Part shown: positions 13,142 to 30,052 of the stretch, in pieces
Layout: every line of letters begins with the position of its first letter
How positions within the stretch are numbered: the stretch's first letter is position 1
Source: Orenia metallireducens
GTDB lineage: Bacteria > Bacillota > Halanaerobiia > Halobacteroidales > Halobacteroidaceae
Length of the DNA stretch: 37,231 bases
NCBI RefSeq assembly: GCF_003001995.1
Contig: NZ_PVNB01000036.1
Span: 1 to 37,231, forward strand
Reading direction: 5' to 3'
Notes under the pieces: generated by a model
Seen by the model: only the letters and a program-made list of their open reading frames with translations
The model's database searches: none
Told to the model about the DNA's origin: nothing
Translations under genes and position numbers: made by a program

Positions 13142-13149
13142 GTGTGAGT

Positions 13150-15891: not shown

Positions 15892-16422
15892 TTGTCAGAA
15901 GCTAAGATTAAGTTTTTATGTATATGTGGAGTAGAGGGTGATTGGTTAGATTGGTTTAAGCATATAAGAACCGATGGTGAGCATGGTATAGCTAAGATAA
16001 TCAATAATGATATTGGAGAATCGGTAGATACTCAAAAAGCAGCACAGGATAAAGGATGGTTAGAAGCTGGAAGAACTAAAGGAAAAAGAAAAAGTAGGAA
16101 CAAAGTCAATCAAAAGGGTGAAAGTGAGAAGGTTAAAAAAGAAGAGTTTAGTAAAGAAGAACCTAAACGATATGCTGAAACTATTACTGGTGAGGTTTTA
16201 CAGACCAATGTAAAGATTCATCCTTATGTTTATGAGTCTTTTGTTCAAGTAATGGGGATGATGCCTAAAAAGTATCCTAAAGATGATAAAGAGACTTTTA
16301 GTAAATATATTCTGCATTTATCAATCTTCTTTAGATTAGTAACTAATTCAATGTTGCCTTGGGGTGACCAATTAGCTAAGTCTATTATGCAACAATCAGC
16401 TAATCAAGAGGAGGTTGAATGA
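15892..16422 (+). CDS. Hypothetical protein, 176 aa, possible DNA-binding protein
   Basis: The TTG start is chosen for the AGGGAGG site ten bases upstream. The N-terminal half (~5-65) contains a CICG motif, a WLDWFKHI helix and a HGIAKIINNDIG segment, followed by a strongly basic stretch (KGKRKSRNKVNQ, then lysine/glutamate-rich) likely to bind nucleic acid. The C-terminal helical part (~110-170) ends in WGDQLAKSIMQQSANQ. It is the first gene after the phased repeats and overlaps the next gene by four bases (ATGA), so it may be an early or regulatory member of the module. I do not recognise the family. Confidence 0.65.
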   Translation: MSEAKIKFLCICGVEGDWLDWFKHIRTDGEHGIAKIINNDIGESVDTQKAAQDKGWLEAGRTKGKRKSRNKVNQKGESEKVKKEEFSKEEPKRYAETITGEVLQTNVKIHPYVYESFVQVMGMMPKKYPKDDKETFSKYILHLSIFFRLVTNSMLPWGDQLAKSIMQQSANQEEVE

Positions 16423-17483
16423 TGGCTAAAAGTGATAGAGATAAAATCTTTGATCGGGATATTGCAGATATGGGAGCTGCTATTAGTGCTATGATGGAAG
16501 GAAAGCGAGATGTAAGCCAGGATAATAATTTTTCCTCTAAGCTGGACAAAGTGCTAGAAGAGATAACTGAATCTACTAAGGTTAAAAATCAAATAGAAGC
16601 CTTAGTTAAGCTACAGGGGAACGATAATCAAGGTGATGTATTTAAGCAATTAAGTGAAGCTGGTCTGCCCTTATCTGAGCTAATAGGAGTGAATCAAGAG
16701 CAAACTAAGACTATGCAACAACTTTTAGATAAAGAGCGGCAAAGAAGGTTAGAAAGTGAGGAAAAAGCCCTTAAAGTCAATCAACAAAATAAATCTCAAG
16801 AAATGAATATGATGATGAAGATGTTTGAAATGCAAATGGAGAATCAAAAACAGCAGATGGACTCTTTTAAAGATTTAGTCGTTGAATTAAAGAATGAAAT
16901 TAAGGAAGTTAAAAATGGTTCTAATTCTAATACTAAATCAAAGAATGACCCAATTAAAACTGCTACTCAGAAGTTACTTAATGAAGCCATTGATGAAAAA
17001 TTAAATACTCAATATCCAGACCCTTTTGAGCAGATAATGTATAATAAGGAACGGTTAAATGCTTTACAAGAGATTTTTGGTGGTAATAATATAGATAAGA
17101 ATAAATTAGATTTAAAACACCAAATTGAATTAAAGAAGATTGAACTTGAAGATAATTGGAGAAGGGAAGAAGCACAAAGAGAAAGGGAATTAGAAGAGAA
17201 GAAGTTGCAGAAGTGGGATGTATTTATAGGCAGCTTACAACAGGTCTTACCTGCTGTAGCACAGGCAGTAGCAAGTAATAATAGTCAAGAGAGTAATCAA
17301 TCTTCTAAGCAAGAAGAGTCTTTTAATAAGCAGAATATGAGTGGTTCAAGTGGTGTTGTTAATAATAACTTAATATGTCGCCAATGTGGCAGGTCATATA
17401 CTTTTGATAATGCCCCTAATGTCTGTGAGTGTGGAGTAGTTTTATTTGAAGAGACAGAAGAAGAGGTAGCTCAACATGAGTAA
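16419..17483 (+). CDS. Long coiled-coil protein with C-terminal zinc ribbon, 354 aa
   Basis: Residues ~40-285 are nearly all predicted helix with heptad-like glutamine-, lysine- and glutamate-rich stretches (QMENQKQQMD, then QRERELEEKK). A serine/asparagine-rich linker follows, and then a zinc ribbon at ~320-345 with CRQC and CEC cysteine pairs. It overlaps the preceding gene by four bases and the next by eight (ATGAGTAA). It could be a scaffolding or DNA-tethering protein of the structural module. No family was recognised, and the scaffold idea is inference from coiled-coil content and position. Confidence 0.7.
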   Translation: MMAKSDRDKIFDRDIADMGAAISAMMEGKRDVSQDNNFSSKLDKVLEEITESTKVKNQIEALVKLQGNDNQGDVFKQLSEAGLPLSELIGVNQEQTKTMQQLLDKERQRRLESEEKALKVNQQNKSQEMNMMMKMFEMQMENQKQQMDSFKDLVVELKNEIKEVKNGSNSNTKSKNDPIKTATQKLLNEAIDEKLNTQYPDPFEQIMYNKERLNALQEIFGGNNIDKNKLDLKHQIELKKIELEDNWRREEAQRERELEEKKLQKWDVFIGSLQQVLPAVAQAVASNNSQESNQSSKQEESFNKQNMSGSSGVVNNNLICRQCGRSYTFDNAPNVCECGVVLFEETEEEVAQHE

Positions 17484-17853
17484 GCAAACAGGTATTTTAG
17501 AAGAAACAGTTTATAATATTTCAATTAATTATGTTAGCAATTCAATCATAACTTGGTTAGAGCAGCAAGATATAGAAAAGCTTAAATCTATTATTAGGAC
17601 CAGAAAAGATATAGTACCTGAAATCAATCAGCAAGTCTCTGCTAATCAAATTAGAAAGATACCAGAGCAGTATAAACAGATGATAGTCAACTATTTGCCT
17701 GTTGTTCAAAATAGAGCAGTTAAGGATATTATTTTAAAGCTTAAACAATATCCTAAATATAAAAGAATTATTGACTTAGATAAAGAGTTTGTTCAGGAAT
17801 TATTAACCAGAGGGAGTAATATACTAATAGTAAGAGTTGGGGATTTATTTTAA
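17476..17853 (+). CDS. Hypothetical protein, 125 aa
   Basis: This is a soluble, mainly helical protein with a basic middle (IRTRKDIVPEINQQVSANQI, then RKIPEQYKQMIVNY) and no cysteines or membrane segment. It overlaps the end of the coiled-coil gene by eight bases (ATGAGTAA), implying translational coupling, and is followed by a terminator. It therefore closes the first subunit of the module (three genes), which may act in DNA handling or assembly. Its family is unknown. Confidence 0.6.
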   Translation: MSKQTGILEETVYNISINYVSNSIITWLEQQDIEKLKSIIRTRKDIVPEINQQVSANQIRKIPEQYKQMIVNYLPVVQNRAVKDIILKLKQYPKYKRIIDLDKEFVQELLTRGSNILIVRVGDLF

Positions 17854-17920
17854 TTCATCATAATAATACAGGTACTAAATCAAATAACATATAATTTCAA
17901 ATTTCATATATAAATCAACT

Positions 17921-17962
17921 AAGAAACCACTAGAATCTAATATTCAGGTGGTTTCTTTTATT
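17921..17962 (+). terminator. Rho-independent terminator
   Basis: A perfect ten-base stem (17921-17930 with 17948-17957), an inner GAAT/ATTC extension and a T-rich tail separate the first three genes of the module from the membrane/structural genes. Confidence 0.85.
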
Positions 17963-17981
17963 AATAGAAAGGTGGTGAACT

Positions 17982-18617
17982 ATGGCTGTCTTTGATAATA
18001 GACAACTTGTTATTAGTGGGATAACCATTGAGCAAATTTCTGAAATTATTGTAAACAGATTTGAAAGAGGAGAGCCAGTAGAATTACAGTTAATTAATTT
18101 AGTCCCTACCTATTATGGAGCTATTAATTATCCTCGGCTTCCTGCTGAGCAGAAATATATAGCTTTATTATTTGGTTCAGTAGCTAATAAGTTAAATGAT
18201 AAGATTGAAAGAATTTATTCTAATCTTCAGCGATGGGAGCAAAATATTCCTTATGTTTCTTTTGAAGAAAATTCATTGATTATTAGATGGCGGGCTAAGA
18301 CTTCTGTTGAAGATTTTGGAGCAGGTCTTGAAAAGTTATTAGCTTCTAAAGATGTTCATTCTTTGGGGATAATTGAACTAAATAATCCTATTGCTGACTG
18401 GTTAGTAGATGACATACAAGTCTATAAATATAATGAGTCTGGTGTGGGAGAAGTTAGAGAGATAGAAGAAGAGAAACAATCTTTTTTTAATAACCTGCTA
18501 ACAGGAATAACTGAGAATAGTACTTTAGGAGTCCCTAATGCCCTCTGGATTATAGCAGGGGTGATAGTAATTCCTCAAATTTTATTGACAATTAGGGAAT
18601 TTAATCCTAATGACTAA
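17982..18617 (+). CDS. Single-pass membrane protein, 211 aa
   Basis: The first ~180 residues form a soluble alpha/beta domain without recognised motif. Near the C terminus (~185-205) a hydrophobic segment, GVPNALWIIAGVIVIPQILL, should cross the membrane once, leaving a short hydrophilic tail. There is no N-terminal signal peptide, so the large domain is probably cytoplasmic or inside a particle. The ribosome site AAGGTGG is good. It is followed by the glycine-rich membrane gene. It may anchor the assembly to the membrane. Confidence 0.65.
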   Translation: MAVFDNRQLVISGITIEQISEIIVNRFERGEPVELQLINLVPTYYGAINYPRLPAEQKYIALLFGSVANKLNDKIERIYSNLQRWEQNIPYVSFEENSLIIRWRAKTSVEDFGAGLEKLLASKDVHSLGIIELNNPIADWLVDDIQVYKYNESGVGEVREIEEEKQSFFNNLLTGITENSTLGVPNALWIIAGVIVIPQILLTIREFNPND

Positions 18618-18692
18618 TAATATAGATATATTAAAGGGGCGGGTATTTACTAAACCCTGAGTAAGAATAAAAACTTTAAGGAGGTTTGATTT

Positions 18693-19124
18693 ATGCCTAG
18701 AACACCTACTGAAAATGCAGTTTTCTTAGGTACATCTGCTGGTTCTGGTTTATTATTAGAGGTTATGGAGAATAGATTAGGAGGGCAACAAGCTCTAGGA
18801 GGTACTATGCCAATCTTACTTGGTGCTGGTGTAGCAGCAGCTGGGATAGCTACTTCAATGTTTAGTCAAGGAAGAATGATGGAGAGTTTTGGTGATGGTT
18901 TAGCTGGTGGTTCTTTAGGTTGGACAGGTGGTAAGTTGGTTGAAATGGGATTATTAGGAGGATTAATAGGAAATAATCCTGCTGGTGGACAGACCCAAAG
19001 TGGTGGAGCAGCAAATGTTGTGAGAGTTAATAATCCTGTTAGAGTAAAAAGAACACCAAATAGAACAGTATCTAATCAAAGTAGAAGAAGGTCTTCTAGT
19101 TCTAATAATATAGTTGAATTATAA
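18693..19124 (+). CDS. Glycine-rich hydrophobic protein, 143 aa (candidate membrane-embedded particle protein)
   Basis: Residues 5-100 are rich in glycine, alanine and leucine. At least one clear membrane span (~45-65, PILLGAGVAAAGIATSMF) is present, and further amphipathic glycine-rich stretches (GLAGGSLGWTGGKLVEMGLL). The C-terminal 30 residues are very basic and serine/arginine-rich (RVKRTPNRTVSNQSRRRSSS), suited to binding nucleic acid or acidic lipid. This composition recalls small membrane proteins of membrane-containing phages, but there is no family match. AGGAGG precedes the ATG. It is 29 bases upstream of the best coat-protein candidate. Confidence 0.65.
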   Translation: MPRTPTENAVFLGTSAGSGLLLEVMENRLGGQQALGGTMPILLGAGVAAAGIATSMFSQGRMMESFGDGLAGGSLGWTGGKLVEMGLLGGLIGNNPAGGQTQSGGAANVVRVNNPVRVKRTPNRTVSNQSRRRSSSSNNIVEL

Positions 19125-19153
19125 ATTTAGAAAATAGAAAAGGGGTGAAATAT

Positions 19154-20239
19154 ATGGCTTTAGCTGAATTAAGCATACTTGCTGATTTTCTTCATACAGG
19201 CACACAAAATGCAGGTACATTATATCAACCTGCGGCTGCTACTGGAAATGGTGAGCTTGATGCTGATGAAGTAGCAGAGATAGCTTACGTGGAAATTGTA
19301 AGCCCTGTATCTGGTGGAACAACAGAAGATTTAGATAGTGTTTATTTAGTCATTGATGGTAAAAGCACACAAAATTTAGTCAATATGTCGGGAAGAGATG
19401 ATAGAGCTACTAATCCAGTTCGTCGACATACTTTGATGAATGATAGTAATACAGAGTTTATATTCTTTGGGAAGAATATAGTTGATTCTTTACGTGATCC
19501 TGTACCTGCTTTGAGTAATACAACCTTTAAAGCTGGTAATAAGATAACAATTATCACTAAGGCAGGAAGCTCTAATGTAACAGCAGATTATCGGGTTAGA
19601 GTTTGGGGTTATAAGTATGACTCGGCTATGTTACAGAGGTTTCCTTCTCGAACTATGCCAGGTAATTTTACAATTAGGGATACTAGAACAGGAAGAGATA
19701 TTAGTGTACCCTTTCCTGAAACTGAAATTAGTATTAATAATTGGAGCTTATTACCTGGTGGAGTTGACCAAGATAAGCCTTCAATCAATCCATTTTTAAG
19801 ATTTGCAACTAACTCTAGTGCAACTACTGCTAATACTCCTTATGAATTTAGATTTGATTTACAGAATGTAGAGGATAACAATAAAGATTTAAGGTTTGGT
19901 TATGATGTAGAGAATAAATTATTTGTAGCAAGGGGTCTTGGAGCAAGATCACATACTAACCTAAGATATATTTGGTTTGATTTAGATGGGGAAGAAAGAC
20001 CAGCCGATAGATTTACTGTAACTGAAAATTTAAATCCTATTCTGTTTGGTAAAGGTACTCCTGAATTTCCTGCTGACTTACCTTTGTATTTACCAATTCC
20101 TCAATTCTCTATTAATGATTTGATTGTTTATAGAGAAAAAGGTGTGGTTAAGATGCAGGATAATGGGACATCAATTCCTACTGATGGTGTAACTGTAGCT
20201 TTATTAGGTACTGAGATTGATTTAGGAGGAAAGATTTAA
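19154..20239 (+). CDS. Beta-rich structural protein, 361 aa (major coat/shell candidate)
   Basis: ATG 19154 is chosen because AGGGGTG lies just upstream; the GTG at 19145 is part of that site. The protein is soluble, cysteine-free and dominated by alternating beta-strand patterns (EIAYVEIVSP, then DLDSVYLVIDG; KITIITKAG, then YRVRVWGYKYD; a later INPFLRFATN, YEFRFDLQN). This suggests two successive beta-sandwich domains, about 25-165 and 195-355. The VYLVIDG strand pattern recurs in two other proteins of the module. The size and position after the membrane protein, and a stable hairpin downstream, fit an abundant structural protein. No known coat-protein signature is visible, so that role is inference. 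Confidence 0.6.
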   Translation: MALAELSILADFLHTGTQNAGTLYQPAAATGNGELDADEVAEIAYVEIVSPVSGGTTEDLDSVYLVIDGKSTQNLVNMSGRDDRATNPVRRHTLMNDSNTEFIFFGKNIVDSLRDPVPALSNTTFKAGNKITIITKAGSSNVTADYRVRVWGYKYDSAMLQRFPSRTMPGNFTIRDTRTGRDISVPFPETEISINNWSLLPGGVDQDKPSINPFLRFATNSSATTANTPYEFRFDLQNVEDNNKDLRFGYDVENKLFVARGLGARSHTNLRYIWFDLDGEERPADRFTVTENLNPILFGKGTPEFPADLPLYLPIPQFSINDLIVYREKGVVKMQDNGTSIPTDGVTVALLGTEIDLGGKI

Positions 20240-20260
20240 TTAATTTGGGGGTGAAGATTA

Positions 20261-20545
20261 ATGGTTGAATATACACTATATCCAACTGCTACTGCTGCTA
20301 CAACTGATATTGATCTACCAGTTAATTTTATTGAACTTGATAGTGTGATTGTAGTAGATGTAGGGTCTTACTCAGGTGGTACTGATGTTACACCTGTAAG
20401 TAAGACTATTGTAGATTCTGCTCCTAGTGCTGGTGAAGCATGGCTAAATTCTGAGACTACCTTTCAATTAGGAGATGCTATTACAGACCAAAACTTAATT
20501 ATTGTCAGAGGTGTCTTAGAGGGTGGCAAATTACTTCCAGAATAA
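20261..20545 (+). CDS. Small beta-rich protein, 94 aa
   Basis: This is a small, acidic, cysteine-free protein with strand-rich sequence (EYTLYPTATAATTDIDLPVN, later IIVRGVLEGGKLL). It has no signal or membrane segment. It starts 21 bases after the beta-rich 361-aa gene behind GGGGGTGAAG and is followed by a long hairpin. It could be a minor structural or decoration protein. Its family is unknown. Confidence 0.6.
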   Translation: MVEYTLYPTATAATTDIDLPVNFIELDSVIVVDVGSYSGGTDVTPVSKTIVDSAPSAGEAWLNSETTFQLGDAITDQNLIIVRGVLEGGKLLPE

Positions 20546-20552
20546 GAGAATA

Positions 20553-20593
20553 GATAATTATCTAGCTAGATTCTTTCTAGCTAGGTGATTATT
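20553..20593 (+). promoter_or_regulatory. Seventeen-bp hairpin without T-run (mRNA stabiliser or partial terminator)
   Basis: Arms 20553-20569 and 20577-20593 pair along their length (two G-T pairs, one G/T end pair) around a seven-base loop. No T-run follows. The hairpin sits between gene units, so it probably protects the 3' end of the upstream mRNA or marks a processing point and raises expression of the 361- and 94-aa proteins. Confidence 0.6.
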
Positions 20594-20611
20594 AAGAAAG
20601 GAGCATAGATT

Positions 20612-21538
20612 ATGACAATTAGTGTGGCTGATATTAGAACAGTTAGATACTTTCCAGAGATATTACCTGCAACTGAAATTAGAGATATATCTCCGAGTAG
20701 TGAAGCAAGTCCAATTCCCTTAGATTTAAGAAGATTTGGTAAGGACAGATTATTACAATTAAGGGATTTATATTTAGATAGAGATTCAGATATTAGATAT
20801 ACAGTAACTGGTGATGATTTTTCATTAGAAAGAAGAGCTGGTGCTGTTGATAATGAGACTATGGACTTTAGTATCTCTGCTACAGATAATCTTACTTATC
20901 GCCTTTATAATACCGCTACAGGGACTACTAAAGCCGATTTTAGGACTTATTTTAGTGTATTGGTAGATAAGTTAACTGTAGCTGATAAACTTAAATATGG
21001 TATAAATCTAAGCTCAGAAGAGGAAAGAATCAATGAAGAGTTAGAGATTAGAGATAGATTAGAGATGGGTAATATTCCTCTACCTTATGATTATAAGTTT
21101 GAAAGAGAGTATAGTATTATAGATTCCTATACTGTCAGCTCACGTATTAGCTCAGTACCAACAACAGGTAATGGTGCTGTATTTGAAGATATTACAGTTA
21201 GAAGTAATGAAGCCTTAATTTTAACCTCAGTAGGAGCTACTCCCTTTACTATAGCCGATAATTTTAGAATTATAATAGATCGTGATGATGATAATGGTTA
21301 TATTACATTATTGCCTAGTGTTATCAATGATTTAAATAAAGAGATTAAGATGTGGATTCCAGCAACAAGAGAGTTAAGGCTTAGAGCAATTGCTAATAAT
21401 TCTTTATCAAATGCTGATATCAGAGTTAATTTACTTAGAATAAGGCTCAATGATATTCTTAAAGTAAGATGGAATTTAGTTGATAGGTCAGAATTTAGTC
21501 AAGAGTTTGTAAATCAGGTCTTAGGTGGTGTTTTCTAA
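20612..21538 (+). CDS. Beta-rich structural protein, 308 aa
   Basis: The protein is soluble, cysteine-free and rich in arginine, aspartate and isoleucine. The first ~165 residues (DLRRFGKDRLLQLRDLYL, then ISATDNLTYRLYN) are mixed. The second half (~180-295) is a beta-sandwich-like domain (VRSNEALILTSVGATP, then NFRIIIDRDDDNGYITL and LRAIANNSLSNADIRVNLLR). Its strand order resembles most of the next protein, hinting at a duplicated domain. The stop overlaps the next ATG by one base (TAATG), a sign of tight coupling and perhaps fixed stoichiometry. No family match was recognised. Confidence 0.6.
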   Translation: MTISVADIRTVRYFPEILPATEIRDISPSSEASPIPLDLRRFGKDRLLQLRDLYLDRDSDIRYTVTGDDFSLERRAGAVDNETMDFSISATDNLTYRLYNTATGTTKADFRTYFSVLVDKLTVADKLKYGINLSSEEERINEELEIRDRLEMGNIPLPYDYKFEREYSIIDSYTVSSRISSVPTTGNGAVFEDITVRSNEALILTSVGATPFTIADNFRIIIDRDDDNGYITLLPSVINDLNKEIKMWIPATRELRLRAIANNSLSNADIRVNLLRIRLNDILKVRWNLVDRSEFSQEFVNQVLGGVF

Positions 21539-22056
21539 TGCCTAATGGAACTTTAGAGGATATAAGAAATTTAGGTATTTTTAATCTGCCTATTGATGAA
21601 GATTTACTCTTAAAAGCTGTTATCTCAGCCCAAAATAGAGGTTATATTAGAACCAGTTTTAAGCGAATTGTAGTTTCAGCTCCACTAGGTACAACCACAA
21701 CTCAAATAATAACCCCACCAGAAGGCAGAGTCCTTAAATATATAGCTACTGACCGAATCTATACGGACATTCATGATAAGGATTTAAAAGTATCCTTAAC
21801 AATAGATGGAGTCCATACAGTCTATAATCAAGTACCACTAACAAGGGATATTTCAGTAGATTCTATCTACTTTCCTTATGTTCAAAATGAAATCAAACAT
21901 ACAATCATTAATAACGGTGCTTATGCTGCTGAATTTACAGAGGATGCAGAGTTATTAAGTATAGATAAATCATTTTTTGACCAGGTATTAAATCCACTCT
22001 TTACAGGTCAATTTGATGCTATTAGAGATTTTGCAACTAGGGTTGGTGGTTTATAA
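21538..22056 (+). CDS. Beta-rich structural protein, 172 aa, related in pattern to the 308-aa protein
   Basis: A short helical start (residues 1-35) leads into a beta-rich domain: RIVVSAPLGTTTTQIITPP, GRVLKYIATDRIY, LKVSLTIDGVHTVYNQ, NEIKHTIINNGAYAAEF, and a closing helix. This is the same order (helical cap, strand, IDG/IDRD turn, late NNG or ANN strand) as the second half of the preceding protein. The gene is coupled at both ends: TAATG with the upstream gene and TAATG with the 58-aa gene. A pair of coupled beta-sandwich proteins is what a two-coat-protein shell would need, but other roles are possible. Confidence 0.6.
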   Translation: MPNGTLEDIRNLGIFNLPIDEDLLLKAVISAQNRGYIRTSFKRIVVSAPLGTTTTQIITPPEGRVLKYIATDRIYTDIHDKDLKVSLTIDGVHTVYNQVPLTRDISVDSIYFPYVQNEIKHTIINNGAYAAEFTEDAELLSIDKSFFDQVLNPLFTGQFDAIRDFATRVGGL

Positions 22057-22232
22057 TGAAACGATATAAATGCCAAGCTCATGGAACTATCTTAGAAGTT
22101 GATAATGAAGGAAATAGAAATCTTAAAGTAAATTTTAATAACATTGGTTGTATTTTACCTATGATTAGTAGCTATGATAAAAATGCTGATTATGGAGCTT
22201 GCAAGATAGTAGAGGTGGATTCCAATGAGTAA
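22056..22232 (+). CDS. Small cysteine-containing protein, 58 aa
   Basis: The short frame starts on the last base of the preceding stop and ends inside the next start (ATGAGTAA), so it is coupled on both sides. It has three cysteines and a histidine (YKCQAHG near residue 6, GCILP near 33, YGACKIVEV near 48), which could form a zinc site. It has no membrane segment. The close packing, rather than any match, supports it as a real gene. Confidence 0.65.
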   Translation: MKRYKCQAHGTILEVDNEGNRNLKVNFNNIGCILPMISSYDKNADYGACKIVEVDSNE

Positions 22233-22926
22233 TGGAATGGCTTTTAATGATTTTGCTAAGGTCTTATCAGGTTGGACTAGAAATGTAATAGATACTGCTA
22301 CTACTGGTAGTGGTTCTACAACAACTAGATTTAGGCTGAAAGATAGATATTTTCAACCAGACCAATTTAATGGTTACTTACTACAATTTATAACTGGTGA
22401 AAGGGCAGGGGCTGTTTATGAAATAGCAGGTAACGGAAATACCTATATTGATGTAACTGCTCCCATAGCTGCTTACACTCCACCTGAGGATGTTAAACTA
22501 GCAATTCTTAATGCTAATGCAGGTGCTTCCTTTGTAGATATAGTTAAGTGGGGGAATCAATATCTGACTGGTGCTGATATAACTCAAAACATTCTTAATC
22601 TAGATGTAGCTTTAACAGAGATTTTAGGTGCTAGTCCTAACTACACTTTAGCAGATAATGAGGATATTTCAGCAGGAAAAGCCTTTACTGCTAGTGAGGA
22701 ATATCAATGGAGAAATACAAGTTTATATCTGCGGACTACTGGTGCTATTGATATTAGTCTAGAATTTGCACCAGAGGGAAGTGATTTTTATGAGCCTGAA
22801 GAGAGTCCTTTAGTCTTTTCTACTGCTGGTACTAATATCTATGAGATTAATTTTGCTTGGAAAGCAATCAGAATTACTGGTTCAAATTCTAGTAATGTAA
22901 CAGCAAAATTAAAAGGTCTTACTTAG
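22225..22926 (+). CDS. Beta-rich structural protein, 233 aa
   Basis: The N-terminal ~85 residues contain GSTTTRFRLKDRYFQPDQ, then FNGYLLQFITGERAGAVYEI and DVTAPIAAY, a pattern common in small phage virion proteins with a compact beta-barrel. The second half (~130-230) is another beta domain: SLYLRTTGAIDISLEFAP, and then YEINFAWKAIRITGSNSSNV. There are no cysteines and no membrane segment. It is coupled to the preceding 58-aa gene (eight-base overlap). It precedes the C1q-like gene, and may link shell and spike. Function is inferred from context. Confidence 0.6.
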   Translation: MSNGMAFNDFAKVLSGWTRNVIDTATTGSGSTTTRFRLKDRYFQPDQFNGYLLQFITGERAGAVYEIAGNGNTYIDVTAPIAAYTPPEDVKLAILNANAGASFVDIVKWGNQYLTGADITQNILNLDVALTEILGASPNYTLADNEDISAGKAFTASEEYQWRNTSLYLRTTGAIDISLEFAPEGSDFYEPEESPLVFSTAGTNIYEINFAWKAIRITGSNSSNVTAKLKGLT

Positions 22927-22941
22927 TAGGAGGAAATTATC

Positions 22942-23424
22942 ATGCCTGTAATTCCAAGTTTAAGGGGAGCTACAGAAGAAGTACATTATCTTGAAGTGGT
23001 TTCTACAGTTAGTGTTGATAATATAGGAGGTACTACCCATACCATAGCTTATGACACAGAAGTTTATGATACTTCTGATATGTGGAATCCAGCAAATCCA
23101 AGTTTAATAACTATTCCTGCTAATGGGATTTATCAAGTTGTTTTAAGTGTTGATTTTTATGCACAGTTAGATAACGGAAGTACAGAGGGTTTAAGATTAA
23201 ATATAAATCCTAGCTTTGGTGCTACAATGACAACTGAGGAATGGTTAAGTAATTATTCTGGTGGAATTGATGTAAATAGTATGAAAGTCAGTTTCTCTAC
23301 TGCAATTTATTTAAGGCAAGGAGATACTATATCAACTAATATACAGAGTTATGGATTTCGGACAGGTTCAGATTTTGATGGGGCAAGGCTTAAAGTAGTT
23401 AATATTGGTGCGATTACACTTTAA
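22942..23424 (+). CDS. C1q/TNF-like jelly-roll protein, 160 aa (spike or adhesin)
   Basis: Almost the whole protein looks like one C1q/TNF-like beta jelly roll. Typical marks are YDTSDMWNPANPSLITIPAN followed by GIYQVVLSVDFYAQ, then TAIYLRQGDTISTNIQSYG and a last KVVNIGAITL strand. This family often forms trimers and serves as receptor-binding heads in phages and spore-surface proteins. It starts 16 bases after the previous gene behind AGGAGG, and lies before the beta-helix gene, the place expected of a host-contact pair. Trimer formation and target are not shown by the sequence. Confidence 0.8.
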   Translation: MPVIPSLRGATEEVHYLEVVSTVSVDNIGGTTHTIAYDTEVYDTSDMWNPANPSLITIPANGIYQVVLSVDFYAQLDNGSTEGLRLNINPSFGATMTTEEWLSNYSGGIDVNSMKVSFSTAIYLRQGDTISTNIQSYGFRTGSDFDGARLKVVNIGAITL

Positions 23425-23437
23425 GGGGGGATAATTA

Positions 23438-24712
23438 ATGGCAAGAATACCTAGTCTCTTAAGAAATGTTAGCTTTAGTGTGCCAGTTACTTTTGTAGTT
23501 TCTGCTCCAGACTCTAAAAATGCAGATAGAGCAGACTTTAAAGTCCCTCAAGGAAGTGTAAATGCAGAAGTGGTAATTAATCAAGCTATCAATCAATTAT
23601 CTCCTAATGGTGGTGAAATAAAATTACTTGAAGGGACTTATATTATTTCGGGTCCAATCAAGCTCAAAGACAATGTTAAATTAGAAGGAAGCTCTAATTC
23701 TACTTTAATTACTATAGCTGATAACTTTAATGTTGATATAAATGCTTTACAGAATGGTGACTTATCAGCAGTTAATACTAATATAACTATTAGAGAATTA
23801 AATATAGATATGAATAGGGCTAATCAAAGTTCAGGTGTAATGAATGGCATGAAATTTTATAATATAGATGGTTTAACCTGTAGGGATTGTAAAGTTATCA
23901 ATGCTAATAATAGAGGGATAGATGTTGATGGTGGAAATAATATAACTATTAATGATTGTCGGTGTACTGACAATGGTGATAATGGAGTTAGTATAGTTAA
24001 TTCAGATGGTTGTACTGTTAATTCTACTGCCTGTTTTAATAATGGTGGCGGCGGTATTTACATTGAAAGTTTGACTGCACCTTATTTTGTCCGTAGTTCT
24101 TTATGTATAAATAATGCTCAGACTGGTATTGCAATCCTGTTTTCTGATAATGGAAATTTAACAGATAATATTTCTAGAAATAATGGAGATAATGGTCTAT
24201 TGCTATTAGATTGTGATAAGACTGTTATATCAGATAGTACCTTAATTAATAATGTTAGTAATGGTATGGCTTTAAGTAATGTCAATTTTTCGACTGTAAC
24301 AGCTAATTTAATGGAAGGTAATAGTTTAAGTGGAATGAATGTTACAGGGGCTTCAAGTTCAGATATAACTTCTAATCAAGTATTAGATAATGGTCAGCAT
24401 GGCTTTAGTTTTACTAACATAGATCACTGTAATATTATATCTAATCATGCAAGGCACAATTCAGTATCAGCAGCTACAACTTATAACAACTTCAACTTTG
24501 TAGGTAGTACAGGTTCTATAACTGAATTTTGTAATGTTCAAACTAATAAAGCAGTATCAGCAGGAACAGTACAATATGGAATCTTTTTAAGTGTTAATAC
24601 TGCTAATAATTTTGTAACTAATAATGATTTAATAGAAGGTGGAGAGACAGCTAACTTTCAAGATAATGGTACTAATAATCGTAAGAATCCTGGAAATAGA
24701 ACAACTGTTTAA
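23438..24712 (+). CDS. Right-handed parallel beta-helix protein, 424 aa (spike-like or glycan-active)
   Basis: After a ~40-residue head, the segment VNAEVVINQAINQLSPNGGE is followed by IKLLEGTYIISGPIKLKDNV, the usual opening of pectate-lyase-3/NosD-type beta helices in phage tail-spikes. Then come at least nine coils of ~22-24 residues (residues ~105-400), with repeated patterns such as ITINDCRCTDNGDNGVSIVN, CTVNSTACFNNGGGGIYIES and SDITSNQVLDNGQHGFSF. It should be a long, rigid, probably trimeric fibre able to bind or cut surface sugars. No catalytic residues can be assigned. It follows the C1q-like gene by 13 bases and precedes the amidase. Confidence 0.85.
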   Translation: MARIPSLLRNVSFSVPVTFVVSAPDSKNADRADFKVPQGSVNAEVVINQAINQLSPNGGEIKLLEGTYIISGPIKLKDNVKLEGSSNSTLITIADNFNVDINALQNGDLSAVNTNITIRELNIDMNRANQSSGVMNGMKFYNIDGLTCRDCKVINANNRGIDVDGGNNITINDCRCTDNGDNGVSIVNSDGCTVNSTACFNNGGGGIYIESLTAPYFVRSSLCINNAQTGIAILFSDNGNLTDNISRNNGDNGLLLLDCDKTVISDSTLINNVSNGMALSNVNFSTVTANLMEGNSLSGMNVTGASSSDITSNQVLDNGQHGFSFTNIDHCNIISNHARHNSVSAATTYNNFNFVGSTGSITEFCNVQTNKAVSAGTVQYGIFLSVNTANNFVTNNDLIEGGETANFQDNGTNNRKNPGNRTTV

Positions 24713-24726
24713 GGTGGTTTGATAGT

Positions 24727-25335
24727 ATGGCTTTTTATATTAGTCCAAGGGTCTTTGGGCGGTTAGATGGTTATAAAATCTTTGTTGATGCAGGTCATGG
24801 TGGAGATAATTTAGGGACTACAGGTTATCATGGTATCTTTGCTCCTGAGGATAATGTTTTTGAGAAGGAGATAAATATTGAGATTGCTTGGGAATTGTAT
24901 TATTTATTAGTTCAGGCTGGGGCAATAGTTAAAATGAGTAGAAGTTCTAATGATCAATTTGTAGCTAATGTGGAAAGAGGACTAGAAGCTAATAGATTTA
25001 ATGCAGATATTTTCGTTTCAATTCATAACAATGCAACAGATGAACCTGCTGTAGTTGGTACAGAGGTTTTATATCCACCTAATAGAGCTGGATCAGAAAG
25101 GTTAGCTATTATAATGAGTGAGTATCTAGCAATTAAATTGCAGACTGAAAATAGAGGGGCTAAATTAAGAGATAATCTAGCAGTTTTAAATAGTACTGAT
25201 ATGGTTTCTGTTTTATGTGAATGTAACTTTTTAACTAATCCTAGATGGGAAGAGAAGATGATGAGTTTTAATTATCAAAAGTATGCTGCCGAAGGTATAT
25301 TTTTAGCAATAAGAAGATTTTTAAGAGGTGGTTAA
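24727..25335 (+). CDS. N-acetylmuramoyl-L-alanine amidase (Amidase_3 family)
   Basis: This is a 202-residue zinc hydrolase that should cut the amide bond between muramic acid and the peptide stem of peptidoglycan. The ligands and catalytic residue are visible: H24 in VDAGHGGDN, E46 in FEKEIN, H100 in SIHNNA and E165 in CECNFLTNP. There is no signal peptide, so export is through the module's own structure or lysis. The family occurs in spore-cortex, cell-separation and phage lytic enzymes. Its position between the beta-helix and the peptidoglycan-binding gene suggests local wall penetration by the structure. Confidence 0.92.
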   Translation: MAFYISPRVFGRLDGYKIFVDAGHGGDNLGTTGYHGIFAPEDNVFEKEINIEIAWELYYLLVQAGAIVKMSRSSNDQFVANVERGLEANRFNADIFVSIHNNATDEPAVVGTEVLYPPNRAGSERLAIIMSEYLAIKLQTENRGAKLRDNLAVLNSTDMVSVLCECNFLTNPRWEEKMMSFNYQKYAAEGIFLAIRRFLRGG

Positions 25336-25818
25336 ATGGCTATTTGTCCTGCACTTCCTGTAAGAATACCACCTAATCTAATAGCTTATGAAGGAGAGTT
25401 TATAGAGAGCTTACAAGAAGCATTAAATCAGAGAGTAGCCCAAGATGATATAGAAGCAATAACTGTAGATGGTGAATATGGAGAACAGACAGCCCAATTA
25501 TTATTAAATGCAATGCTTCAATTTAGAAATGATTTTGGCAGGCTACCTGATTATGAATTATTCCAGATAACTGGTGAGAGTATTGCAGGTTGTGAAACCT
25601 ATACTTATTTAGGACTTGATTGTGATGAAGTTGTTCCTGTTAGAATTAATTATCAGGAATATGAGGATATTTTTCAGTTACTTGTCGGTTTGAAGAATAC
25701 TAGAGCTGATTTATTTATCTGTCAAGAACTAAGAATGAGAAGAAGAGGAAATGCAATAGTAGTTGGAACTATAGCTTTAGTAGGTATTGGTTTCTTGCTT
25801 ACTATGGGAGGTGAATAG
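25336..25818 (+). CDS. Peptidoglycan-binding-like protein with C-terminal membrane anchor, 160 aa
   Basis: The ATG follows the amidase stop with no spacer. Residues ~15-75 resemble a PG_binding_1 helix bundle: FIESLQEALNQRV, then ITVDGEYGEQTAQLLLNAML, including the usual DG-(Y/F)G--T turn. After a linker, a hydrophobic segment at ~138-155 (AIVVGTIALVGIGFLLT) is preceded by basic RMRRRGN, so the N-terminal domain and the anchor lie in one protein. It probably tethers the amidase region or the structure between wall and membrane. The PG-binding call rests on one turn motif and is moderate. Confidence 0.65.
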   Translation: MAICPALPVRIPPNLIAYEGEFIESLQEALNQRVAQDDIEAITVDGEYGEQTAQLLLNAMLQFRNDFGRLPDYELFQITGESIAGCETYTYLGLDCDEVVPVRINYQEYEDIFQLLVGLKNTRADLFICQELRMRRRGNAIVVGTIALVGIGFLLTMGGE

Positions 25819-25819
25819 A

Positions 25820-26443
25820 TTGGCAAGGTTGAGTCAGTTGTTATTATTACAAGGAATAAATCTGATTGGTAAATCAATTCTAACAAGAAATAGAGCAACT
25901 AAACATAGGGATATAATAAGGGAAGCTATAAAAAAGCTTGATGAGATTAAAGAAGCGATTGATCATGAAGCAGAAGAAATTTCAAAACTAACTACTACTA
26001 ACAATATAACTTTAGATAATCTTAATGATAAAGTAATCGAAGATACAGAAGAGGTGGAAGAACCTTACTCAAATTATGCCCCTGAGATGTCAGTAGATAC
26101 TAGCTGTATTGCTTGTGCTAGAGCACATCTTCTAGCAGTCAAAGGAATGTTAAATGAAGCCTTAAGGTTTGCTAGAGAAGATGGAGTAGCCCATCCAGAG
26201 GTAATTACTAGATTGGATTCTTCAGGAGAAGAATTAGTAATGTTGGAAAGGTTTGATTGGACACCAGAAAAGATTCAAAATTCACCTGTAGATGAGCAAG
26301 AAATAGTTAGAGAAGCCTTACCTAAAGTAAGAAGGTTGAGGCAACAGGTCTTAAATGGGATTAACTCTTCTTCTGACCTTGAAACAGCTGCTAGTTTATC
26401 AGCAGATATCTATTCAAGGATTAGGCAAAAAGGGGGTGAATAG
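25820..26443 (+). CDS. Helical protein with a CxxC motif, 207 aa
   Basis: TTG 25820 is chosen because GGGAGGTGAA lies eight bases upstream; an ATG at 25787 is inside the previous gene and has no ribosome site. The protein is predominantly helical. Near residue 95 a CIACARAHLLAVKGMLNEAL segment is followed by FAREDG and a PEVITRLD segment; CxxC-A-xH suggests a metal-binding or redox site. The N terminus (LSQLLLLQGINLIGKSIL) is amphipathic rather than a clear membrane span. I do not recognise the family. It is tightly packed in the module. Confidence 0.65.
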   Translation: MARLSQLLLLQGINLIGKSILTRNRATKHRDIIREAIKKLDEIKEAIDHEAEEISKLTTTNNITLDNLNDKVIEDTEEVEEPYSNYAPEMSVDTSCIACARAHLLAVKGMLNEALRFAREDGVAHPEVITRLDSSGEELVMLERFDWTPEKIQNSPVDEQEIVREALPKVRRLRQQVLNGINSSSDLETAASLSADIYSRIRQKGGE

Positions 26444-26445
26444 AT

Positions 26446-27264
26446 ATGCCTTCAGCAATGTTTAATCAGGTCTCAAGTGTCCCATTAGAAGCTATATATT
26501 CAGAAGGTCAAGAAGATATAGCAGTAGGTAGTGGAATCACATCAACAGCACAGCAGCAACAAAGTAGTATAGCTCAGGATATTTTAGGGTTTATATACGA
26601 TATTGGAAGGCAACAGGCTTATTATCCAGACCAAGCTACTAATGATATGGAAGAGATATTAAATAATATTCGCCAACAATTAATAGATAGAGAAGCATTA
26701 TCGCCAGTTTTAACAGGCACAATAACTGAGCCAACAGAAACAGAATTGACTAGCCAAACTATGCAGTTAGTTGGCTTTAATCAAGGAGTTAGATTCTTTC
26801 ATTTACTTTATCCCCAAGAGGTTACTTATAGAGTAAGTGGTACTGTTGGAGCATATAAGAGTTATACTCCTTTGTATGTGATTACTGATGTGATTGGGAC
26901 TGAGCTAATTGGTAATTTTAATGGTGTTTATAGAGGGGTTGAAGATTCAGAGGTAATTAGAACAGGTACAGATGTATCTTATTTACATCAGCCAGATTAT
27001 AACTTCTTTGAAGTAGAAAGAAGCTTTCAATTAAATGCTGGTACTTATGCTATAGTAGGGGCAATAAATGGTTCTGGATTCTCACCTCAAGATAGTGAAT
27101 TAGCGATTCAAGTTATCTTTGAAAAGCCAGTTGTTCAAGGCTTAGATGATGTAGCTCCTCAAACTCCATTGCCAGCACCAAATCAAGGGCAAAGAAGAGT
27201 TGGTTTAGGTAGTTTATTACCTTTGCTTGGGACTATTAGTTTACCATTTATAATAGGAAGATAA
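26446..27264 (+). CDS. Structural-type protein with hydrophobic C terminus, 272 aa
   Basis: A glutamine-rich helical start (~30-85) is followed by a beta-rich domain (~105-225: YRVSGTVGAYKSYTPLYVIT, then SFQLNAGTYAIVGAINGSG, and LAIQVIFEKPVV). A proline/glutamine linker then leads to a hydrophobic tail (LGSLLPLLGTISLPFIIGR) that could insert in a membrane. There is no signal peptide. The gene starts three bases after the previous stop behind AGGGGGTGAA. It may be another membrane-anchored part of the structure; no family match. Confidence 0.6.
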   Translation: MPSAMFNQVSSVPLEAIYSEGQEDIAVGSGITSTAQQQQSSIAQDILGFIYDIGRQQAYYPDQATNDMEEILNNIRQQLIDREALSPVLTGTITEPTETELTSQTMQLVGFNQGVRFFHLLYPQEVTYRVSGTVGAYKSYTPLYVITDVIGTELIGNFNGVYRGVEDSEVIRTGTDVSYLHQPDYNFFEVERSFQLNAGTYAIVGAINGSGFSPQDSELAIQVIFEKPVVQGLDDVAPQTPLPAPNQGQRRVGLGSLLPLLGTISLPFIIGR

Positions 27265-27320
27265 TTAACCATTGTTTGATAATGGTTTAATTATAAATAA
27301 AATTTAAGGAGATGATAATT

Positions 27321-27605
27321 GTGGCTGGGATTCCTTTAAATGAGTTGAATAATGCTATTGCTTATAAGTCAGTTCCTTGGGCTAAAGACCAGATTTCAAT
27401 TAAGAGGGCAAGTTTTCCTAAGGGGAAAGTTCCAGAACATCTTAGAGGTTATACTGATGATTTAGCTAGAGCTGCCAGAGCTTGTGCTAGAGAGACAGAA
27501 GGTCTTAGAGGCTCTGATAGAGTTAGAGCAATGAATGCTTGTGTATCTAATCGACTAGGTGGTAGAGGTAGAGGGCAACGACAATTACCACGTGTAGCAG
27601 AATAA
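27321..27605 (+). CDS. Small basic protein, 94 aa, tandem paralogue of the next gene
   Basis: GTG 27321 is chosen because AAGGAG lies nine bases upstream, while ATG 27312 directly abuts that site. The core (~30-80) reads FPKGKVPEHLRGYTDD, LARAARACARETEGL, then RVRAMNACVSNRL, and the end is arginine/glycine-rich. The same core occurs in the next protein with about half the residues identical. Two conserved cysteines (in the RACAR and MNACVS segments) may be structural. It is likely helical and nucleic-acid-binding. The family is unknown. Confidence 0.65.
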   Translation: MAGIPLNELNNAIAYKSVPWAKDQISIKRASFPKGKVPEHLRGYTDDLARAARACARETEGLRGSDRVRAMNACVSNRLGGRGRGQRQLPRVAE

Positions 27606-27624
27606 TAGAATATTAGGTGATAAG

Positions 27625-27834
27625 ATGGGTAAAGAAAAGCAGATTATCATTAGAAATACACCATATAAAAAAGGTGAAATACCTAAACATTTAAAGCAAT
27701 ATACTGATAAACTAGCACAGGCAAGTAGAGAGTGTGCTTTGAGTACAGAAGAATTAGAAGGTATGGAAAGGGTTCAGGCTATGAATGCTTGTGTTAGTCA
27801 AAAAATGAAAGAAGAAGGTCTTAAAAATGAGTAA
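27625..27834 (+). CDS. Small basic protein, 69 aa, tandem paralogue of the previous gene
   Basis: The core YKKGEIPKHLKQYTDK, LAQASRECALSTEEL, then RVQAMNACVSQKM aligns with the 94-aa protein along its length without gaps, sharing KG-x-x-P-x-HL, YTD-x-LA and AMNACVS. It lacks the arginine-glycine tail. The stop overlaps the next start by eight bases (ATGAGTAA). The pair arose by tandem duplication and may form hetero-oligomers. Confidence 0.7.
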   Translation: MGKEKQIIIRNTPYKKGEIPKHLKQYTDKLAQASRECALSTEELEGMERVQAMNACVSQKMKEEGLKNE

Positions 27835-28048
27835 ATGCCCTATATGTCAAGTTATTCTTCGTGAGCTATGTATTAATGAAAGAAAGCAAACACTCTGTAA
27901 AGTCTATGAAGACTATGAATTAGGTAATGTTAAAGGAGTAGAAGCTTTAGACTTTGCCTTAGCAGAAGCAGGTTATGATGGCTATATGAGAGCAAAAAAT
28001 AGTATAAAAAAGAAAGGTTTATTACCTAAAGAGCTATTAGGAGATTGA
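27827..28048 (+). CDS. Small cysteine-rich protein, 73 aa
   Basis: The N terminus has CPIC, then further cysteines in RELCINE and TLCKVYE, which suggests a zinc knuckle. The rest is helical (KGVEALDFALAEAGYDGYMR). The gene is translationally coupled to the preceding one by the ATGAGTAA overlap. A hairpin follows its stop. Its function is unknown. Confidence 0.6.
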   Translation: MSKCPICQVILRELCINERKQTLCKVYEDYELGNVKGVEALDFALAEAGYDGYMRAKNSIKKKGLLPKELLGD

Positions 28049-28054
28049 TAGATG

Positions 28055-28078
28055 GGGGCAGCTATATATAGTTGCCCC
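28055..28078 (+). promoter_or_regulatory. GC-rich hairpin after the 73-aa gene
   Basis: Ten-base arms (28055-28064 and 28069-28078, one G-T pair) enclose a four-base TATA loop. GC content is unusually high for this DNA. Only a weak T-run follows, so it is a partial terminator or mRNA-stability element. Confidence 0.6.
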
Positions 28079-28101
28079 TAATTTAATAGGGAGGTGCTAA
28101 G

Positions 28102-28257
28102 ATGGCTAAAAGTAATTCTAAGGGTGCTTTTATCCCTTTGATTCTATTAGGGGTTGGAGTAGGAGCATTATTCTTATTTCAAGGAAGTGCAGTAGCTCAG
28201 CCTAGTAATGGTGCTAGAGCAATTATTGGTGATGCGATAGTCCATAGACCAGAATAA
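28102..28257 (+). CDS. Small membrane protein, 51 aa
   Basis: GGGAGGTG lies just upstream of the ATG. A basic N terminus (MAKSNSKG) precedes one hydrophobic span (residues ~10-30, FIPLILLGVGVGALFLF) that ends in a SAVAQP sequence resembling a signal-peptidase site. The mature part would be short. It may be a lipid-embedded small protein of the structure or a lysis/accessory peptide. Confidence 0.65.
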   Translation: MAKSNSKGAFIPLILLGVGVGALFLFQGSAVAQPSNGARAIIGDAIVHRPE

Positions 28258-28278
28258 TAAAGTGAAGGAGGTTTTAGA

Positions 28279-28749
28279 ATGCCTATTTCAGAGCTTAGTG
28301 TGTTTGACCCACCAATCCCTAATGCAATCAGGATTCAAATTACTTTGACCAATACAGGTGATAGGGTAGGAACTTTTTATGTGCAAGGGGTTACTGGGAT
28401 TGTTGAAGGGGCTGTTAGCTCAATAACAGATATTGATATTGCTGATGTTTCTTATCCGTTATTGGCTTTAGCGGCTGATTTTGATTCCATAGTAAATGCA
28501 GGATTTAGTAATGGTGGTCTTGCTGGAATAATTAATGTAGAGGCGGGACAGTCGGTTACAATTCGCTTTGATACTGAGGTGATTAATCAAGTTGGATTTT
28601 TTGACCTTGGTTTTCAAACTGGGATTTATAATGCAGAGACGGGAGCTTTTGAAAATTTACAGGATACTTTGATTGTAGAAGATATATTTGAGATGTATGT
28701 ACCTCCAACTGGTGAACTTAGTAATCTTGAATTTATCGGAACTGTATAA
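28279..28749 (+). CDS. Immunoglobulin-like beta protein, 156 aa (paralogue of the next gene)
   Basis: The protein is soluble and beta-rich: IRIQITLTNTGDRVGTFYVQ, then GFFDLGFQTGIYNAETG. TNTGDRVGTFYV and the later GQSVTIRFDTE are typical of an Ig-like beta sandwich. The same order (TxxNx--x-GxFY, ...DIA..., FDS, TIRF) occurs in the next protein, so the two are tandem paralogues. AGGAGG lies eight bases upstream. It may decorate the structure. Confidence 0.65.
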   Translation: MPISELSVFDPPIPNAIRIQITLTNTGDRVGTFYVQGVTGIVEGAVSSITDIDIADVSYPLLALAADFDSIVNAGFSNGGLAGIINVEAGQSVTIRFDTEVINQVGFFDLGFQTGIYNAETGAFENLQDTLIVEDIFEMYVPPTGELSNLEFIGTV

Positions 28750-28773
28750 TCAAAGAATAGGAGGATTTATAAT

Positions 28774-29220
28774 GTGAGTGTTGGATATAACCTTAGATTT
28801 GATTCAAGTCCTCAATTCATCTTAGAACTAACGATTGTGAACAATAGTGAGCATAGTGGAAGCTTTTATTGTTATGGTGCTACCAGTAGGGTAAATCATA
28901 GAGTCTATTCTTTTTTTGATATAGCCCAATTTGGCTTAGGATATACAGAGTTTGAACCAGTGGTAGGATATTTTGATTCTGTTAGCTCTGTACCTACTAA
29001 TACAGCACAGGGTGAGATTAGAGCAGGGATAATAACTTTAAGCCCCCAAGAGAGTTATACAGTTAGATTTAGAACAGCTAAGCCTTTAATAACACAAGGG
29101 TATTGGGATATAGTCTTTGTAGTTGGTGGTTATGATTTAAAAAATGATAGAGTAGTTTCTTTTGGTGGTACTCTAATAGAGGATAACTATATTAATGTTT
29201 ATTATTATAGTTACTTTTAG
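28774..29220 (+). CDS. Immunoglobulin-like beta protein, 148 aa (paralogue of the previous gene)
   Basis: The GTG start at 28774 has AGGAGG nine bases upstream; GTG 28780 is an alternative. It repeats the fold pattern of the previous protein: ELTIVNNSEHSGSFYCYGAT, a FDIAQFG segment, GYFDSVSS, then ESYTVRFRTAKPLIT and GYWDIVFVVGGYD. It has no signal peptide or membrane span. It is the last gene of the module before a strong terminator. Confidence 0.65.
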   Translation: MSVGYNLRFDSSPQFILELTIVNNSEHSGSFYCYGATSRVNHRVYSFFDIAQFGLGYTEFEPVVGYFDSVSSVPTNTAQGEIRAGIITLSPQESYTVRFRTAKPLITQGYWDIVFVVGGYDLKNDRVVSFGGTLIEDNYINVYYYSYF

Positions 29221-29250
29221 GAGGGGATAAGGTGTTTTCTGATTAAAGAT

Positions 29251-29282
29251 AAAAGTCTGGATTTAAATCCAGACTTTTATTA
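29251..29282. terminator. Palindromic terminator ending the structural module
   Basis: Perfect 14-base arms (29251-29264 and 29265-29278) with A- and T-runs at the ends make a bidirectional terminator. Confidence 0.9.
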
Positions 29283-29333
29283 GTTAATTATATATCTATA
29301 CATTCTCAAAAAATCTATAAGAAATATTTTCTA

Positions 29334-29402: not shown

Positions 29403-29412
29403 TTGACGTCAA
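29403..29412. promoter_or_regulatory. Second TTGACGTCAA palindrome, operator candidate
   Basis: This is the ten-base palindrome found at the upstream -35 box, 69 bases further on, again preceded by TAT or CTAT and followed by GA. Spacing to a -10-like box is poor here, so repressor binding is likelier than promoter function. Confidence 0.5.
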
Positions 29413-29450
29413 GACTTCAAACAAAAAATAATCTAGGAGGAATCAAACTA

Positions 29451-29990
29451 ATGGAAAACGCTATCGCAATACAGAATCTAGGAGCTTATAACAGGGGAGA
29501 GTTACGTTTTAAGTGGGTGGAGCTACCAACTACTACCGAAAGGATTAAAGAAGCCATTAAGGAAGTGCTAAACACTCCTTATAATGATGAAGAGTATCAC
29601 ATAGCAGATTATAATGATTGTTGTGGCTTATTATATGAGTATTTTGGGGAGTGGGCTAGCCCTTATGAAGTCAATGAATTTATGGAGTTAGTAGAAGAGA
29701 GTGGACTTGATAAAGAGGTAATATCCTTATTGGCTGATTGTGTCAGCACTAAAGAAGAGTTTAAGGAAGTAATTTTGGAAGATGAAGACTATTTTATTTT
29801 GTATGAGGTCAGTAATGAAAGGGAATTAGGCTTGGAATTAGTGTACGAATTTAACTGGCTAGGATTAAGTAAAGAAGAATTAGACAAGGTAGAAAATTAC
29901 TTAGATTATGAGTATATAGGCAGAGAAGCAGGGCATGACGGTTGGGTAATAGATAGAGTAAATAGGGTAGCTGTAAAGGTTAATAGATAG
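29451..29990 (+). CDS. ardA: ArdA-family anti-restriction protein
   Basis: This is a 179-residue, very acidic protein. ArdA dimers mimic bent B-form DNA and block Type I restriction enzymes during plasmid entry. The N-terminal AIQNLGAYNRGELRFKWVEL matches the ArdA pattern (I--LG-YN-GEL-G-W), followed by an EEYHIADYND segment like the AxHDYE region of Tn916 Orf18. The late ENYLDYEYIGREAGHD matches the YIDYxxxGRD area. ATG 29451 is chosen for AGGAGG ten bases upstream; an upstream ATG at 29403 overlaps the operator palindrome. It belongs to the early-transfer type of genes with the RadC-like protein. Confidence 0.85.
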   Translation: MENAIAIQNLGAYNRGELRFKWVELPTTTERIKEAIKEVLNTPYNDEEYHIADYNDCCGLLYEYFGEWASPYEVNEFMELVEESGLDKEVISLLADCVSTKEEFKEVILEDEDYFILYEVSNERELGLELVYEFNWLGLSKEELDKVENYLDYEYIGREAGHDGWVIDRVNRVAVKVNR

Positions 29991-30052
29991 TAAAGAGGTT
30001 TGCAGGTTCTCCTAAAACCTGCACTAAAAATATTCTAGGAGGAATTAAAGCA

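Follow-up and report, generated by a model that had tools for sequence, protein, structure and literature searches.

FLiP, the Odin group and SPV1 are tailless viruses that have structural genes but no packaging ATPase (PMC7654751, PMC8812541, PMC5894146). The stretch of DNA examined here—the whole of a 37,231-nucleotide contig from Orenia metallireducens, hereafter 'the window'—resembles them in this respect, for between positions 15892 and 29220 it carries an operon of particle-like genes, and it too has no such enzyme. The most likely reading, to which we give a probability of about 0.55, is that the operon belongs to a tailless and probably membrane-containing virus that exists in the plasmid state, on a plasmid backbone. 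FLiP and SPV1 also contain lipid and have circular genomes, and FLiP has a plasmid-like replication gene. By analogy, the ATPase-less viruses would be the closest functional model for packaging of this kind. They differ from the window in that their genomes are ~20 kb or less rather than 37 kb, in that no kinship between their proteins and those of the window is detectable, and in that the coat proteins of the window are candidates only. Because the size differs and sequence kinship is lacking, we do not file the window as a member of these groups.

Members of the Tectiviridae, Corticoviridae and Sphaerolipoviridae resemble the window in other ways. Their structural proteins, too, include many small orphans, and they have single-pass membrane proteins, a wall-lytic enzyme and spike genes; some viruses of these types persist as plasmids. 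They encode an FtsK/HerA-type packaging ATPase, however, which the window does not, and their sequences do not match it. Plasmids offer a third comparison. Those with a PriCT-type replication protein (Rep), found in Bacillus, Priestia, Exiguobacterium, Paenibacillus and Carboxydocella, share with the window a Rep of ~26% identity and, in several instances, RadC/JAB or ParM; but in place of the particle-like operon these plasmids have transfer genes of the TcpE/TraG/VirD4 type or a cluster for a Tad pilus. Lastly, a 107,775-bp contig from a sister species of the same genus, G002:C8, contains a contractile-tailed phage genome that we would call a phage-plasmid on account of its gene content rather than any demonstrated circularity. 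It has ParM-type genes (the ParM homologue is 28% identical), an Amidase_3 endolysin, and the same YetF-HtrA-GT2-Na/Ca exchanger cargo as the window. Its contractile-tail module, which the window lacks, is complete (TerL, portal, capsid, sheath, tape measure and baseplate); its structural genes are unrelated, and it has no window-type Rep.

The operon and its products

Twenty-three open reading frames (ORFs), all on the + strand, occupy 15892–29220. Coding sequence makes up 96% of this DNA, several starts and stops overlap, and Shine-Dalgarno sites precede most starts. In frame 0, and in no other, codon usage matches that found elsewhere on the plasmid; all of the ORFs look intact, and the longest specifies 424 amino acids (aa). 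Since this is one co-directional coding block, and it ends in a strong terminator, we consider the module to be real and its borders natural. The first-pass annotation had described a single, packed gene block on a plasmid, and so it proves to be. Its features, with E-values in brackets after the families, are these:

15892..16422, +, orphan of 176 aa, first gene of the operon; no family
16419..17483, +, coiled-coil-like protein of 354 aa with a C-terminal Cys4 zinc-ribbon motif (CRQCG...CECG); weak DUF1451 match (0.0046)
17476..17853, +, orphan of 125 aa; no family
17982..18617, +, orphan of 211 aa with a C-terminal membrane anchor (hydrophobic segment 179-208)
18693..19124, +, Gly-rich hydrophobic protein (segment 34-58) with an Arg-rich C-tail; candidate internal membrane/DNA-contact protein
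19145..20239, +, coat candidate 1, 364 aa, Cys-free; chosen on position and composition; no homologue
20261..20545, +, small orphan of 94 aa; no homologue
20612..21538, +, coat candidate 2, 308 aa, Cys-free; no homologue
21538..22056, +, minor coat candidate, 172 aa, Cys-free; no homologue
22056..22232, +, small ORF of 58 aa, overlapping both neighbours
22225..22926, +, candidate spike/decoration protein, 233 aa; no homologue
22942..23424, +, C1q/TNF-like receptor-binding head; phrog_2826 (2.2e-5), phrog_746, minor tail protein (1.4e-4)
23438..24712, +, right-handed beta-helix spike; Pfam Beta_helix (9.3e-26), phrog_2234, tail spike (1.1e-5)
24727..25335, +, N-acetylmuramoyl-L-alanine amidase, endolysin type; Pfam Amidase_3 (9e-38), phrog_435, endolysin (2.6e-32)
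25336..25818, +, C-tail-anchored membrane protein (membrane segment 137-160), possible wall binder; wall binding judged by eye
25787..26443, +, orphan, probably helical, start uncertain
26446..27264, +, C-tail-anchored membrane protein of 272 aa (membrane segment 252-271)
27312..27834, +, pair of small paralogues of 97 and 69 aa (52% identity, 1.5e-21), the first basic-tailed; net charge +0.09 per residue
27827..28048, +, small Cys-containing ORF of 73 aa
28102..28257, +, small membrane protein of holin-like size (membrane segment 6-33)
28279..29220, +, paralogous pair of beta-rich proteins, 156 and 148 aa (30% identity, 2.7e-8; shuffle z 12.6)
29248..29281, +, intrinsic terminator closing the operon: 15-bp stem, 4-nt loop; perfect 16-nt inverted repeat

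The operon's only recognizable members—the spike, the C1q-like head and the endolysin—appear from their sequences to be of phage type. Both the beta-helix and the amidase had been named beforehand, and the family matches bear them out. The amidase scores 99 bits against the spore CwlD model, whose cutoff is 221, and phage endolysin families match it better. The C1q-like head fares less well, its support being weak in PHROGs and in Pfam (TNF, 0.16), and the wall-binding anchor proposed at 25336 has no Pfam match. 'Beta-rich', a term applied to proteins of the block, survives as a trend in composition and nothing beyond. Presumably the protein at 22225 resembles phage surface domains. Paralogy is genuine in two instances, 27312/27625 and 28279/28774.

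Single-pass membrane proteins, also foreseen, are indeed present: the hydrophobic segment is C-terminal in 17982, 25336 and 26446, and N-terminal in 28102. The glycine-rich hydrophobic protein is that at 18693. Among the module proteins, 28102 alone has an N-terminal hydrophobic segment; with three C-tail anchors besides, assembly would therefore take place in the cytoplasm, rather than by export to the surface. The six proteins named as coat or spike candidates (19145, 20261, 20612, 21538, 22225 and 22942) contain no cysteine at all, where 8.4 would be expected, although this set was picked after the counts had been seen.

Neither PHROGs, on the module proteins scanned, nor Pfam revealed a terminase, a portal or capsid protein, a tape measure, or a protein of sheath, tube or baseplate. 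A P-loop scan of all six frames found no Walker A motif on the circle in a plausible nucleoside triphosphatase (NTPase); its two matches resemble chance, one being in an antisense frame and the other, GINLIGKS at 25853, in an N-terminus that is itself doubtful. G002:C8 served as the positive control. The same library recognized 13 of 14 proteins scanned from that contig, including TerL (4.4e-139), portal (2.8e-84), head maturation protease, major head protein, sheath, tape measure, baseplate and endolysin. Because G002:C8 is so readily recognized, the missing tailed-phage core cannot be put down simply to blindness of the library, and the original impression that the core and a packaging ATPase are absent stands. 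The negative carries far less force where tailless viruses are concerned, since these have fast-evolving proteins of which only a handful have been described.

Relatives of the remaining module proteins were sought widely, although not every protein was run against every collection. Apart from the spike, the C1q-like head and the endolysin, they match nothing in PHROGs, Pfam or NCBIfam, and when 10 of them were compared with PHROGs at E <= 10, only chance-level matches appeared. By tblastn, the module proteins queried found no match in 50,697 phage records (the presence of FLiP/Odin/SPV1-type viruses in the phage libraries was not checked), and in plasmid records only the window itself. Three module proteins have no match among PDB sequences. 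Eight (19145, 20612, 17982, 22225, 21538, 26446, 25336 and 20261) have no relative in IMG/VR, and two (19145 and 21538) have none in GTDB contigs of 85,000 species; both of these scans require an exact peptide of ~8 residues and would miss all but close relatives. Searches of greater sensitivity found no relative of the two coat candidates and five further proteins in 59 genomes of the class, and no accepted relative in 398 genomes of the phylum. One weak match in the phylum, in G324 (E 0.0018), was discarded; it overlaps an integrase gene and has no module around it. Lacking both a tailed-phage core and a packaging ATPase, and with core proteins for which none of these searches turned up kin, the operon may be a new kind of plasmid-virus.

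The plasmid backbone

The window is contig C36 of a 4.1-Mb assembly in 95 contigs. With ends that overlap by exactly 95 bp, it closes into a circle of 37,136 bp. Another contig of that assembly, C56, has a self-overlap of identical length and closes to 6,327 bp; we take both to be complete circles, and the 95 bp to be the assembly overlap. The genes and sites that maintain the larger circle, with two genes from the far side of the operon, are these:

12080..13141, +, ParM/actin-like partition protein; Pfam ALP_N (1.1e-16), MreB-like_C (5.7e-16)
13144..13458, +, predicted ParR-like partner, from its position after ParM
13920..15464, +, replication protein, PriCT-type Rep, by homology to plasmid Reps
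15799..15875, +, CGTAT repeated seven times, 11-12 bp apart, between Rep and module; probable Rep iterons/origin
29403..30658, +, two plasmid backbone genes, for the antirestriction protein ArdA and a RadC-like JAB protein; Pfam ArdA (5.5e-19), RadC (2.2e-42)

The ParM also matches PRTRC_D of NCBIfam (1.2e-24), under the family cutoff, and its presumed partner matches no family above cutoff. Just upstream of parM, at 11940-12010, lie paired CCGATA/TATCGG motifs at ~10-11 bp spacing, which are reminiscent of a parC centromere. The Rep has 'primase C-terminal domain' Reps on 23 Bacillota plasmids as its ~26% relatives, and is 60-61% identical to the Rep of C56. C56 bears the same seven-fold CGTAT array alongside its own Rep, and it does so without the module. 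For this reason the array is most likely the origin for Rep, and the idea that it might be the operator of the module was dropped. A circle, a Rep, iterons common to a second plasmid and a ParM together supply the autonomous plasmid replication and partition that a phage-plasmid calls for. The two plasmids may compete for replication. Besides its Rep, C56 encodes a Dam-like DNA methylase, one further protein and a Xer-type integrase.

Judged by its sequence, the Rep belongs to a conjugative-plasmid family. In the relatives that we examined, conjugation genes come directly after Rep or elsewhere on the plasmid, and the Carboxydocella plasmid has a cluster for a Tad pilus. Rep is followed in the window by the module, then by ArdA and RadC, and so the module sits where conjugation genes sit in several PriCT-Rep plasmids. 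Neither Pfam scans nor the P-loop NTPase scan revealed VirB4/VirD4-type ATPases or a relaxase in the circle.

A 25-nt repeat (29327-29351 and 29396-29420, the copies 84% alike), with TTGACGTCAA, flanks a strong sigma-70-like promoter in front of ArdA, and this suggests that the promoter is regulated. Elsewhere, at 4089-7050, the plasmid encodes a type I-like N6 methylase and a specificity subunit, but no restriction subunit is obvious; a DUF4268 protein comes next, at 7119-8036. The genes of 4089-8036 form an incomplete or divergent restriction-modification set.

A virus or something else

If the operon does belong to a plasmid-state virus, events might run as follows. Rep, the iterons and ParM would provide for replication and inheritance, and a late operon would have replaced the conjugation genes. 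The coat candidates 19145, 20612 and 21538 would assemble in the cytoplasm on a patch of host membrane held by the tail-anchored proteins 17982, 25336 and 26446, and by the Gly-rich, Arg-tailed protein 18693. The shell would be decorated by 22225, the C1q-like 22942 and the beta-helix 23438, and the amidase would open the wall, at entry or at exit. DNA would enter with no help from a virus-encoded ATPase, by condensation during assembly, as has been proposed for the ATPase-less viruses. Alternatively, and this is speculation, the virus might borrow the motor of its host, FtsK/SpoIIIE; FtsK is present in the host in a single copy. That particles exist at all, which proteins form their coat, whether they include a membrane, and by what route they are packaged, we infer from the genes. 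A bolder version holds that this is a new lineage of Bacillota viruses: a circular plasmid-virus of 37 kb, built upon the backbone of a conjugative plasmid, whose tailless virion proteins share no sequence kinship with any known, and which encapsidates, without a motor of its own, a genome about twice the size of that of any known ATPase-less tailless virus. This we regard as tentative, and on balance doubtful.

Several things weigh against a virus of this kind. Thirty-seven kb exceeds the ATPase-less precedents (SPV1 is ~20 kb), and the genomes of the Odin group are the smallest of the double-jelly-roll (DJR) supergroup. The absence of relatives wherever we searched leaves the reading with no comparative support. 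Among the matches listed for 247 CRISPR spacers, taken from 20-kb regions surrounding cas1 in 12 related genomes, there was no convincing protospacer in the module. Nor has a capsid fold been demonstrated, and the coats are candidates by prediction only. Single-sequence AlphaFold models of 19145 and 21538 reached predicted local distance difference test (pLDDT) scores of just 35 and 31, too poor for a fold to be read, and with Foldseek the 19145 model had no match in BFVD at E <= 0.001. Several RNA-virus capsids did appear in the Foldseek list for this poor model, but with TM-scores of ~0.1-0.2 they carry no weight. A pattern that seemed, by eye, to be shared by 19145N, 20612N/C and 21538 drew no support from shuffles or from leave-one-out hidden Markov models (HMMs). 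A non-tailed and perhaps membrane-containing particle, as first suggested, nevertheless remains the best fit.

The operon might, instead, make a particle that others fill: a satellite, packaged by a helper phage or phage-plasmid in the host population, or else a relic whose packaging has been lost. The circle does lack an ATPase, and its cargo cassette does recur on the tailed phage-plasmid contig of the sister species. Yet every ORF looks intact, the coat-candidate genes are not of the tailed-phage types that known terminases serve, and searches of the host assembly with PF03354 and phrog_2 found no terminase—a weak negative, as phrog_2 also misses the phrog_38-type terminase of G002:C8, which phrog_30251/phrog_38 detect. 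We think this explanation unlikely. More improbable still is that the genes are those of a highly diverged tailed phage from which most head and tail genes have gone. The spike, the C1q-like head and the endolysin match tailed-phage families, it is true, but portal, terminase, tape measure, tube and baseplate are missing, while the same search finds them in the sister contig, and no protein exceeds 424 aa. Of all the explanations we disfavour this one the most.

Two others do without a virus, and to each we would give only a small chance. In one, the plasmid of this spore-forming host directs assembly of part of the spore surface—exosporium or appendage—from mother-cell proteins that form a fibre or coat bearing C1q-like heads, the amidase serving the cortex. 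Signal peptides would not be required, C1q-like heads do occur on exosporium fibres, a gene of the spore-permease family is present on the circle, and the amidase registers on the CwlD model, if far below the cutoff. But that enzyme is nearer to phage endolysins; spore appendages are disulfide-rich, whereas the six coat and spike candidates have no cysteine; and the proteins tested have no relative in the 59 genomes of the class. In the other, the operon encodes a machine that crosses the wall—an adhesin, or a device for secretion or DNA transfer, in place of the conjugation genes. The module's position in the conjugation slot of related plasmids agrees with this, as do the amidase and the tail-anchored membrane proteins. 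An extracellular apparatus was among the original proposals, and it has lost ground: the circle has no secretion or coupling ATPase and no VirB4/VirD4, 28102 has the one possible signal peptide, and no secretion or pilus protein was matched in Pfam or NCBIfam.

Cargo exchange, and what a plasmid-virus would mean

Beyond the backbone genes, the circle carries a cassette that it has in common with G002:C8:

32940..37231, +, cargo cassette YetF-HtrA-GT2-(36102)-Na/Ca exchanger, 36102 being a small gene

On G002:C8 the genes are in the same order, and the four main ones specify proteins of 73-95% identity. The HtrA of the window is 73% identical to the copy on G002:C8 and 64% to the host's other copy. 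From these identities it appears that cargo has moved between the window plasmid and G002:C8. The notion that the circle is chromosomal DNA with an inserted element was dropped on two counts, the 95-bp self-overlap and the nearness of HtrA to the G002:C8 copy. A gene for an Rpn/YhgA-like transposase_31, with two extra copies of its C-terminal piece (1450-1716, 31096-32001 and 32027-32206), occurs on both sides of the cargo part, and these pieces may be points of recombination for cargo exchange.

If the operon makes particles, then a conjugative-plasmid backbone has swapped its transfer apparatus for a virion, and the Orenia circle would be a direct example of passage from plasmid to virus. 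The range of sizes over which DNA can be packaged independently of an ATPase would be wider than it has been. And within one genus, tailed phage-plasmids and tailless plasmid-viruses would draw upon the same cargo genes.

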